Translations under genes and position numbers: made by a program
Shown here: positions 3,627 through 5,310 of the stretch, in pieces
Numbering within the stretch: position 1 is the stretch's first letter
Layout of the letters: each line of letters begins with the position of its first letter
Source: Bacteroidota bacterium
GTDB taxonomy: Bacteria; Bacteroidota; Bacteroidia; Bacteroidales; UBA10428
Assembly (NCBI GenBank): GCA_003252385.1
Contig: QKEH01000118.1
Location: 1-34,226, forward strand
Reading direction: 5' to 3'
Length of the DNA stretch: 34,226 bases
The notes under the pieces: model-generated
What the model was told of the DNA's origin: nothing
Seen by the model: only the letters and a program-made list of their open reading frames with translations
Databases searched by the model: none

Positions 3627-3992
3627 TTAATGGCTGCACTGATGATCGTCGCCGTGATGTGAGCAGGTTTCGCCCGAGTCTTTAACCAAGTCTCTTAAAT
3701 ACGCTTCCGCCAACAAACGAACCGGTCCTGTACAACCCCGAAAAACCTGAATCCCGGCCTGCGAAACTTTATTCACTGCCCCCTGGCCCATATTACCGGC
3801 CAGCATTACCTTTACACCCTTTTCCTGAAGGACTGTGGCAATGTCGGACTTACAGCCACATCCCTGTGGTGCCTGAAATAATTCTTCGTTAACAATGGTT
3901 TTAGTATCCGATACCGAATAAATGGTATAATACTCACAATGACCAAAATGGTCGTCGACCTGCTGATTTCTGGAGGGTATTGCTATTTTCAT
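3627..3992 (-). CDS. NifX/NifB-like (dinitrogenase Fe-Mo cofactor biosynthesis domain) protein with CxC and His-rich tail
   Basis: 121 residues matching the dinitrogenase iron-molybdenum cofactor biosynthesis fold (ribonuclease H-like; the family includes NifX, NafY and the NifB C-terminus). It starts MKIAIPSRNQQVDDHFGHC, the usual DHFGH signature, and has GCGCKSD (44-50) and a C-terminal tail with several His and Cys residues (from residue 110). These suggest binding of a metal or Fe-S species, but no nitrogenase genes are in the window and stand-alone members occur in non-fixers, so the actual cargo is unknown. It is the last gene of the minus-strand operon headed by the DUF134 regulator, 46 bases after the DUF1847 gene. 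Confidence 0.85.
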   Translation of the reverse strand: MKIAIPSRNQQVDDHFGHCEYYTIYSVSDTKTIVNEELFQAPQGCGCKSDIATVLQEKGVKVMLAGNMGQGAVNKVSQAGIQVFRGCTGPVRLLAEAYLRDLVKDSGETCSHHGDDHQCSH

Positions 3993-4038
3993 TTCTATTT
4001 AAGTATAAGATATTATAAGGCATATTCTGCAACAAAGC

Positions 4039-4521
4039 CTATTGGCCGTTTACCATCAAATCGAGGCGTTCCATGGTGTGGTGTCTCCGTTTGCGGTCTT
4101 TAACCACCAGGGTCGATGTGGGAGCCTCGGATTTCTTGTTGAAAACAATATCGTGACCTACACATAAACCTAACACCAGGTTCATTTCAGTATTACTGCC
4201 GTTGAGCACAGCAGCTTGTCCCGCCGGATTGCATAATGTCCCCTGGCTTTCGGGGCGGATGGCACTACGAGGTATCTTCCCAACTTTACAATGCACCCGT
4301 ACCACTTCAAATCCCTCCTGCTCCAAATGCTTCTCCAGTGCCACCGATTCCTTCTCAAACGAAATGCAATTGGCAATGCCTATGCGCTTCATGCCGGCTG
4401 CCCGTGCAAAAACCACCAGCTCATCCACCCGGTCGTTTGTCCGGTTTATCGAATCTTCTGCCAGCTGCATGGTTTTCCAATCCGAATCGCTATACAGCTC
4501 CTTAAACTCCCTCTCTTCCAT
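4039..4521 (-). CDS. DUF1847 family protein lacking the Cys-rich N-terminus
   Basis: A 160-residue cytoplasmic protein of the DUF1847 family, recognised by IGIANCISFEKES, the VHCKVGKIP segment, LCNPAGQA and GLCVGHDIVFNKKSEAP followed by STLVVKDR. The conserved cysteines and the C-terminal GHD suggest a metal-binding enzyme of unknown activity. Family members I know of usually start with a cysteine-rich stretch of about 50 residues; here the protein begins directly at the helical region, so that part is missing. It sits third in the operon, 9 bases after the cysteine-free NifX-like gene and before the CxC-bearing one. The function is not established; family assignment is fairly secure. Confidence 0.8.
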   Translation of the reverse strand: MEEREFKELYSDSDWKTMQLAEDSINRTNDRVDELVVFARAAGMKRIGIANCISFEKESVALEKHLEQEGFEVVRVHCKVGKIPRSAIRPESQGTLCNPAGQAAVLNGSNTEMNLVLGLCVGHDIVFNKKSEAPTSTLVVKDRKRRHHTMERLDLMVNGQ

Positions 4522-4530
4522 ATTATAGTA

Positions 4531-4851
4531 TTACTTATTTCTGTTTCTATAATAAACAACATCCTGCAAGTTCCGGATTTTGGCGTCCAGAACAATAATC
4601 TGCACTTTATTCTTTAATGCCATCTGCTGAATTTTTAATCCCAGCTCGTAAGCAGCCAAAGTACTTACCCCCATCTCGTTTACCAGCATATTAAAAACTT
4701 TTCGCCCGGCATGCAACGGGTTATTGGCATACGGATTGGCCAGTAATACCGGAAGGGTTCCGTCCAGAATCGCAAAGAAAGCACTACGGGCAAACTGCAT
4801 GCTTAACGCGCTGTCCAAACTGTATGTTGATATAGGGACCACCAACTTCAT
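4531..4851 (-). CDS. NifX/NifB-like protein without cysteines
   Basis: 106 residues with the same fold signature as the gene at 3627-3992 but divergent: it starts MKLVVPISTYSLDSALSMQF, has an AxxFAILDG strand and a GVSTLAAYELGLKI helix that match the second half of the dinitrogenase Fe-Mo cofactor biosynthesis domain. It has no cysteine and no DHFGH motif, so it is unlikely to bind the same cofactor and may act as a partner or scaffold of the CxC-containing paralogue. It is second in the operon, starting 3 bases after the DUF134 stop codon, which suggests translational coupling. Family call is moderate; role is inference. Confidence 0.65.
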   Translation of the reverse strand: MKLVVPISTYSLDSALSMQFARSAFFAILDGTLPVLLANPYANNPLHAGRKVFNMLVNEMGVSTLAAYELGLKIQQMALKNKVQIIVLDAKIRNLQDVVYYRNRNK

Positions 4852-4854
4852 ACC

Positions 4855-5262
4855 TCATCCTTTAACCCGCTCGTACTGGTTACTCCCACATAAAGGACAA
4901 CACTCCGCCCCCTTCCCAACCGGATCGTTAAACTTGCTTCGACACGCCAAACAGGCAAACCACCGGCCTTCGAAAATGGCGGTTCCACCTTCTATTATCA
5001 CCTGGCGCCCTTCGGTTAAGGCCGAAGCTATTTTAAACCTGGCTCGCTCGTAAATCCGCGTTAACGTAGGACGCGAAACCTGCATAAACCCCGATGCTTC
5101 CTCCTGCGACAGGTGTTCATAATCCAACAACCGTATGGCTTCATACTCTTCGAGATGAAGCATAACAATACGCTCGGGCTCCTGGGTATAATGCCCCAAA
5201 GGCATAAACCCCTTCACCCGTGGAGGAGACTGTATTTTACTTATTTGCCGGGGACGTGCCAT
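4855..5262 (-). CDS. DUF134 family DNA-binding protein with zinc-ribbon tail
   Basis: A predicted transcription factor of 135 residues. It has the DUF134 arrangement: MARPRQ start, a PLG...E segment, and a helix-turn-helix of sigma-70 region 4 type (EEYEAIRLLDYEHLSQEEAS then VSRPTLTRIYERARFKIA, about 38-82). The C-terminal part carries two CxxC pairs (CLAC and CPLC, about 103-124), likely a zinc ribbon or a metal-sensing site. DUF134 genes are often found beside NifX/NifB-like genes, as here, where it heads a four-gene operon. A perfect palindrome at 5289-5302 sits inside its own promoter, suggesting autoregulation; that link is inferred from position. Confidence 0.85.
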   Translation of the reverse strand: MARPRQISKIQSPPRVKGFMPLGHYTQEPERIVMLHLEEYEAIRLLDYEHLSQEEASGFMQVSRPTLTRIYERARFKIASALTEGRQVIIEGGTAIFEGRWFACLACRSKFNDPVGKGAECCPLCGSNQYERVKG

Positions 5263-5279
5263 CTACTGAAATGAGGATG

Positions 5280-5310
5280 CAAATATATTGAACATATGTT
5301 CATAACCCAA
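5280..5310 (-). promoter_or_regulatory. Promoter of the DUF134 operon
   Basis: On the minus strand TTG (5310-5308), 20 bases, then TATATTTG (5287-5280), a full match to the Bacteroidota -33/-7 pattern. The box ends 17 bases before the ATG at 5262. Confidence 0.7.
5289..5302. promoter_or_regulatory. 14-bp palindromic operator candidate
   Basis: TGAACATATGTTCA is a perfect palindrome lying wholly within the 20-base spacer between the -33 and -7 elements of the DUF134 operon promoter. A protein bound here would block RNA polymerase. The DUF134 product is the obvious candidate ligand, but this is inferred from position only. Confidence 0.6.

Follow-up and report, generated by a model that had tools for sequence, protein, structure and literature searches.

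A DUF134-headed operon of NifX-like and DUF1847 genes in a Bacteroidales genome and its predicted operator

The window analysed here is the whole of contig QKEH01000118.1 (34,226 nucleotides) from the Bacteroidota assembly GCA_003252385.1, and the system in question is a four-gene operon preceded by a perfect palindrome (Table 1). In operon order, the genes encode a DUF134 protein with a helix-turn-helix (HTH) region, a NifX-like protein devoid of cysteines, a DUF1847 protein and a second NifX-like protein bearing a CxC motif, with intergenic gaps of 3, 9 and 46 bases. The first and third are members of their Pfam families: 86.1 bits against PF02001 (gathering cut-off 27) and 129.3 bits against PF08901 (gathering cut-off 25), respectively. 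The CxC NifX-like protein lies above the Nitro_FeMo-Co cut-off of Pfam, whereas its cysteine-free companion, with 23.9 bits, falls short of the required 26.3. Cysteines 104, 107, 121, 122 and 125 of the DUF134 protein make up two CxxC pairs, and those of the CxC NifX-like protein are at positions 19, 45, 47, 87, 110 and 119. The coordinates of the open reading frames (ORFs), the Pfam matches and the cysteine counts thus agree with the original prediction, which was made from the letters of the window and had described four genes in one direction with these gaps, a DUF134 protein with two CxxC pairs, and a cysteine-free NifX-like protein accompanied by one with a CxC motif and a His/Cys tail; moreover, the gene order recurs in G197 (G-numbers denote genomes, and L-numbers loci, of the relatives compared). 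It had further been stated that nitrogenase, Mrp and ferredoxin genes are missing from the neighbourhood. This holds for the window, where a phmmer comparison of all ORFs of at least 50 residues with the genome's own NifH, NifD, NifB and Mrp and its two ferredoxin ATPases returned no match at E ≤ 1, but not for the genome, which encodes such proteins on contigs 142 and 79. An Rfam scan found one tRNA and nothing more, and scans for sigma-70 promoters and terminators remained at chance level.

Table 1. Features of the operon and of related loci in the source genome and in one relative
Feature	Position	Strand	Basis
−33 promoter element, TTG	5308-5310	minus	20 bases before the −7 element; same spacing elsewhere
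Predicted operator, 14-bp palindrome TGAACATATGTTCA, 7+7 bases without mismatch	5289-5302	.	sequence
−7 promoter element, TATATTTG	5280-5287	minus	sequence, pattern match to TAnnTTTG
DUF134 regulator, first gene, HTH and CxxC...CxxC	4855-5262	minus	135 aa; Pfam 2.6e-24
NifX-like protein, cysteine-free, proposed partner	4531-4851	minus	106 aa; Nitro_FeMo-Co 5.2e-5, below cut-off
DUF1847, short form, four invariant cysteines	4039-4521	minus	160 aa; Pfam 1.2e-37
NifX-like protein with HFGHC, GCGC and Cys/His tail, proposed metal-sulfur carrier	3627-3992	minus	121 aa; Nitro_FeMo-Co 1.2e-22
Predicted site assigned to the paralogous DUF134, TGAGAATATTCTCA, counterpart of TGAACATATGTTCA			
Paralogous DUF134 operon, contig 79	L054:3881-8180		
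nif cluster, contig 142	L055:3764-14148		
Second short DUF1847, contig 8	L057:6792-8395		
Weak NifX-like protein, contig 178	L056:1938-2315		22.1 bits
DUF134-NifX-NifX-DUF1847-methyltransferase operon, G167	L221:310-2620		

The palindrome lies 26 bases before the start of the DUF134 gene. Bacteroidota promoters carry TTG at −33 and TAnnTTTG at −7, and by this motif we take TATATTTG and the TTG triplet on the other side of the palindrome to be the −7 and −33 elements of the operon. The palindrome would therefore be placed between the two, a position that suggests repression.

The relationship between site and regulator was examined in 198 genomes from the same order as the source genome. These gave 137 DUF134 matches, of which six below the cut-off were removed to leave 131, and the family is present in 104 of the genomes. 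From the 30 best-scoring loci, the window's included, 29 could be used for the upstream count (L152 has no usable upstream region): GAACN4GTTC occurs within 200 bp upstream of 20 DUF134 genes, again including that of the window, whereas 500 dinucleotide shuffles produced 0.03 on average and never more than 2, and the full 14-base form occurs upstream of 17, against 0.004 in the shuffles. When the operator was combined with the −7 box, the 198 genomes yielded 80 matches and only three to the reversed pattern; for 56 of the 80, a DUF134 gene on the same strand follows within 400 bp, and for one further site it follows at 401 bp. DUF134 is found in 63 of the 65 site-bearing genomes, compared with 104 of 198 overall (Fisher p 5e-21). 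Additionally, 38 of 62 distinct contexts have a TTG whose last base is 17-22 bases, most often 20, ahead of the −7 box (1, 7 and 3 in control windows). The set of 62 non-redundant DUF134 genes is biased and does not give a rate, as it includes L169-L198, which were chosen for carrying the site. Because GAACN4GTTC is enriched upstream of DUF134 genes and tracks the genomes that bear them, DUF134 very probably uses the palindrome as its operator, as the original prediction of a self-targeting site had it. Both the operon and the operator of the window are real.

By sequence comparison, the site follows the regulator, the operator varying with the DUF134 subtype. Upstream of the DUF134 genes of L139, L141, L149 and L163, GAGCATATGCTT replaces GAACN4GTTC. 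The second DUF134 gene of the source genome, on contig 79, is preceded by two copies of GAGAATATTCTC, one exact and one with a mismatch, and the two regulators of one cell therefore appear to use separate sites; the sole other exact copy of this paralogous operator in the genome is on contig 73, inside a 1004-residue ORF. Further afield, 20 genomes from other phyla, reached via DUF1847 loci (L094 being left out of 21), contain seven DUF134 genes above the cut-off: two have TTGAC-type sites (TATTGACATATGTCAATA in one, TTGACATAAGTCA twice in the other), one has a long palindrome around GTGCATATGCAC and four are without a clear match. A genome-wide GAAC regulon in the source genome was considered and rejected, since no strict site exists there besides the one in the promoter of the window operon; when up to two mismatches are allowed, 15 copies are obtained, compared with nine for the reversed control, and four of the six inspected are inside ORFs. 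The structural model of DUF134, built from five alignment rows, has a mean predicted local distance difference test score (pLDDT) of 67.4 and is fair in its HTH part alone; this part resembles sigma region 4 and DeoR domains, with Foldseek E values all above 0.05. A PDB sequence search with DUF134 gave nothing useful.

The 24 sites that remain outside the DUF134-upstream count indicate what else the operator may control. Sixteen of them lead DUF134, DUF5320, NifX, ATPase, Mrp, DUF1847 or linked genes, and one of the 24 is the 401-bp case. DUF5320 is led by nine (one checked with Pfam, the rest assigned by eye from a shared N-terminus); single sites lead NifX-NifX-ATPase-ATPase, Mrp-NifX, DUF1847 and, according to Pfam, a pyridoxal-phosphate-dependent enzyme of Cys/Met metabolism; at three, another gene comes first, followed by Mrp, NifX-ATPase or a flavin adenine dinucleotide (FAD) reductase. 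The commonest partners behind the operator are DUF134, DUF5320, NifX, ATPases and Mrp, and the operator would extend to a regulon for which we found no description in the literature. Nor does the system stand apart from ATPases and ferredoxins, which occur both among the relatives behind the same operator and in the paralogous operon of contig 79; the latter runs DUF134-NifX-NifX-two ferredoxin ATPases-Mrp and has the different operator. A ZIP transporter is present in the L225 cluster, with similar ORFs seen by eye in L209 and L217.

The gene set itself recurs in several arrangements. The exact order of the window is found in G197 (L223), DUF134-NifX-NifX-DUF1847 in G064 (L227), G154 (L228) and G167 (L221), DUF134-DUF1847-methyltransferase-NifX in G039 (L229), and DUF134-DUF1847-NifX in G227 (L050), a genome outside the 198. 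Around the 30 DUF134 loci, NifX is a neighbour in 21 and any of NifX, ATPase or Mrp in 23. DUF1847 is present in 36 of 295 genomes; of its 39 loci, eight outside the 198 DUF134-searched genomes were removed, and among the 31 counted it lies within 3 kb of DUF134 in eight and within 10 kb in ten.

The CxC NifX-like protein and its 13 aligned relatives all keep the HFGxC and CxC motifs and the C-terminal Cys/His residues, and C19, C45, C47, C110 and H113 are invariant in 13 proteins. It matches the C-terminal part of the NCBIfam MrpORP model with an E value of 1.8e-18, below the full-length cut-off. Among the counterparts of the cysteine-free protein, an FGRC/FARC cysteine is present in 8 of the 11 aligned; those in L223 (G197) and L054 also lack the FGRC cysteine but hold others. 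Of the proposed pairing of a ligand-bearing with a ligand-free NifX-like protein, the putative ligand residues of the first are conserved in all 13 relatives, whereas the zero-cysteine state of the second is specific to the window. A PDB sequence search with the cysteine-free protein gave nothing useful. On contig 178, the genome encodes another weak NifX-like protein, with a cysteine-rich tail, CSGSCSSCGTFCS.

DUF1847 contains only four cysteines, C52, C78, C97 and C120, which, together with H123 and D124, are invariant in all 55 aligned sequences (54 of 80 loci plus the window protein). Like many of its Bacteroidota relatives, it is a short form: alignment to the Pfam profile begins at position 28 of 157, and the protein lacks the cysteine-rich segment that long forms, such as those of L035 and L040, carry at the N-terminus. 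In the structure model (pLDDT 95.9), C52, C78 and C120 directly follow strands 46-51, 72-77 and 113-117, respectively, and C97 precedes helix 99-108; judging from these positions, the four should therefore converge at one end of the sheet. Fold comparisons with Foldseek (best E 5.1e-3) and VIA returned, among the families listed, a common Rossmann-like arrangement only. A Dph2/NadA-like [4Fe-4S] fold was considered, but the match to Dph2 (Z 9.5, root-mean-square deviation 2.8, 93 aligned residues) is on a par with those to periplasmic binding proteins (Z 10.3), and PDB sequence searches gave nothing useful. Elsewhere, long-form DUF1847 forms the middle of a conserved trio, flanked by a radical SAM/SPASM-type protein and a thioredoxin-pyridine-nucleotide disulfide reductase fusion (L031, L032, L033, L036, L042, L043 and L045; 7 of the 30 loci from the taxonomic order of the source genome, with the families checked on L032). 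A DUF1847 gene also comes after an HDOD-domain gene, which ligA often precedes, in L079, L086, L090, L091, L092, L107, L109 and L122, mostly titled Geobacter-type/Desulfuromonadales. The second short DUF1847 of the source genome, on contig 8, is directly behind an SBF-family transporter with CBS domains.

Taken together, the operon, the position of the operator and its association with DUF134, the repeated occurrence of the gene set and the conserved residues, all obtained by sequence comparison, lead us to propose that the window operon is an autorepressed accessory module of a NifX/Mrp metal-sulfur handling network of anaerobic bacteria, a reading to which we assign a probability of roughly 0.5; a metal-sulfur role would be the likeliest reading of the proteins concerned. 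DNA binding, dimerization, repression, the signal, metal binding and the parts played by the two NifX-like proteins and DUF1847 we infer as follows. DUF134 would be a dimeric repressor that binds TGAACATATGTTCA through its sigma-region-4-like HTH. As the operator fills the space from −33 to −7, bound DUF134 is proposed to block its own operon until a signal, be it a metal, sulfide or the redox state, releases it; the CxxC...CxxC segment may be what senses this signal. The CxC NifX-like protein may then carry a metal-sulfur species on the HFGHC, GCGC and C-terminal Cys-His residues, with the cysteine-free protein as its putative partner, and DUF1847, through the presumed four-cysteine site at one end of its Rossmann-like sheet, may load, reduce or pass on this species, perhaps together with thioredoxin- or rhodanese-type partners.

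Several observations weigh against this proposal. Only 54 of the 131 DUF134 matches carry the strict site with a −7 box, and the GAAC form is absent upstream of nine of the 29 genes; by eye, GAGCATATGCTT stands upstream of four of these nine and a one-sided form upstream of three, and the remaining two show no clear site. The 29 loci also contain near-copies, such as L142/L154 and L164/L165, and G197, with the same gene order as the window, has only the imperfect site ATGAACATAAGTGCAT. The regulated set beyond DUF134 was assigned partly by eye, and 7 of the 24 sites are without a gene assignment: besides that of G010, those in G157 (C716), G067, G069 and G121 fall within or ahead of unrelated ORFs, that of G026 is at a contig end, and one in G017 is the back-to-back mate of an Mrp site. 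In six of the eight loci where DUF1847 is no more than 3 kb from DUF134, the genes form a simple run on one strand, but in G090 the genes are divergent and in G107 two ORFs intervene. Moreover, DUF1847 neighbours DUF134 in just one of the 30 DUF134 loci, the window itself, and it is therefore an accessory, not a core member. The co-occurrence on which the original prediction relied is accordingly seen in part: the operon recurs, in G197 and, rearranged, in G064, G154 and G167, but the four families are not general neighbours.

Among the alternatives, the system might mainly serve to detoxify thiophilic metals or metalloids such as arsenic, with the NifX-like proteins and DUF1847 acting as sinks. 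ArsP_2 exporter genes are found at an operator site in L218 and in the run behind one in L212 (with a similar ORF in L216), and the G167 operon, DUF134-NifX-NifX-DUF1847-methyltransferase, stands beside an arsenite methyltransferase gene (above cut-off) and a gene of the low-molecular-weight phosphatase family. The transporter next to the second DUF1847 would fit as well, although it scores 62.5 against an ACR3 cut-off of 282.8. However, arsenic genes do not adjoin the window operon, and the most frequent partners of the operator, listed above, are of another kind; we consider this explanation unlikely.

A role in nitrogen fixation, in which the NifX-like proteins would hold precursors of the iron-molybdenum cofactor (FeMo-co) and the remaining proteins support them, appears more doubtful. 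The source genome does possess a nif cluster on contig 142, with nifH, nifD, nifK, nifE and nifB above their cut-offs and a nifN-like gene below, and binding of FeMo-co precursors by NifX-domain proteins is described in PMC8351635. Nevertheless, the CxC protein reaches only 19.9 bits against the NifX (TIGR02663) cut-off of 112 and 27.6 against the NifB cut-off of 343.65, and the nif cluster has separate NifX-like genes of its own, after nifB; nitrogenase service was rejected as the main explanation on these grounds.

It is slightly harder still to credit that DUF1847 is a passenger, present in the operon by chance and not acting jointly with the NifX-like proteins. Its rarity next to DUF134 would agree with this, as would its occurrence mostly in other settings; in 11 of 80 named loci, for example, its neighbours are thioredoxin or rhodanese-type genes. 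Against it, the eight of 31 loci within 3 kb compare with an expectation of about 0.04 by our own arithmetic (approximately 0.7 DUF134 genes per 3.6 Mb genome), and in G090 (L222) DUF1847 has an operator of its own. Furthermore, on a tree of 46 DUF1847 proteins from Bacteroidota-type loci, made by a quick method and excluding other phyla, the label 'DUF134 within 3 kb' is clustered, needing six changes, against 9.3 for shuffled labels; four of the six are forced by starred branches, so that the link has been gained or lost several times.

Finally, as the core of the operator is identical with GAACN4GTTC, given in PMC2248561 and PMC11442139 as the core of the LexA box of Gram-positive bacteria (Firmicutes and Actinobacteria), the distribution of LexA was tested, and the idea that the palindrome is an SOS box making the operon DNA-damage inducible instead of DUF134-controlled was rejected as highly improbable: the source genome has a LexA_DNA_bind match above the cut-off, beside a DNA-polymerase-IV-like ORF (named by eye), but is one of just 3 of the 65 site-bearing genomes that do (7 with any LexA match), as opposed to the 63 with DUF134, inspection by eye placed recA, lexA or uvr genes behind none of the 24 non-DUF134 sites, and the site varies with the DUF134 subtype.

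A wider proposal can be made rather tentatively. DUF134 may constitute an unrecognized class of metal- or sulfide-sensing repressors, found in several phyla, with an operator code of its own in which half-sites of the GAAC, GAGC, GAGA or TTGAC type flank a short core that is often ATAT. The regulon that they might define, with genes for NifX-like proteins, DUF5320, ferredoxin ATPases, Mrp, ArsP_2 and DUF1847, might be dedicated to metal-sulfur trafficking in anaerobes. DUF1847 would then be a four-cysteine cluster protein of a new type, and the window operon might represent a second branch, free of ATPases and with an orthogonal operator, that shares its cell with the ATPase branch.

In the literature searched, from which subscription papers are mostly absent, 'DUF1847', COG4887 and PF08901 were not found, nor was DUF134 together with 'dinitrogenase iron-molybdenum cofactor', nor the 14-base operator; the 12-base core occurs in four papers, and in two of these, PMC2248561 and PMC11442139, it is a LexA site. 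UPF0251, COG1342 and PF02001 are each mentioned in one paper. Matches to 'DUF134' in PMC10434189, PMC8459023 and PMC8346489 are parts of the longer numbers DUF1349, DUF1343 and DUF1345, and word matches, 22 papers in all, therefore overstate the DUF134 literature. Many anaerobes encode NifX-like proteins, DUF5320, DUF1847 and ferredoxin-MinD ATPases, whose function is mostly undescribed; a common operator would join them into one testable regulon. The DUF134 family, likewise of undescribed function, gains a predicted DNA site and promoter position, and a signal found to lift DUF134 off this site could help to show what the NifX/Mrp network is for.

Of the known systems, the LexA operator shares the core of the site but differs in regulator distribution and gene content. 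NifX and the C-terminal domain of NifB belong to the same Pfam family, Nitro_FeMo-Co, as the CxC protein, which is far below the specific cut-offs of both and is encoded outside the nif cluster. IssA, the iron-sulfur storage protein of Pyrococcus furiosus, is, according to PMC8351635 and PMC6345978, a single NifX domain from an anaerobe, as here; its C-terminal tail is described in the latter as cationic and thioferrate-binding, whereas that of the CxC protein, DSGETCSHHGDDHQCSH, is Cys/His-rich and acidic. The Desulfovibrio ORP complex genes (Orp3, Orp4, Orp5, Orp8 and MrpORP/Orp9; PMC6345978) likewise encode NifX-domain (Di-Nase) proteins, and the HFGHCE and tail motifs of the CxC protein resemble those discussed there for the Di-Nase domain of MrpORP. 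ORP operons are reported to be sigma54-controlled, whereas the window operon has a predicted DUF134 operator. In contrast to the ORP cluster, the window operon is without ATPase, ferredoxin and Mrp and possesses DUF134 and DUF1847; the paralogous operon of the same genome, like the ORP complex, adds two ferredoxin ATPases and Mrp.

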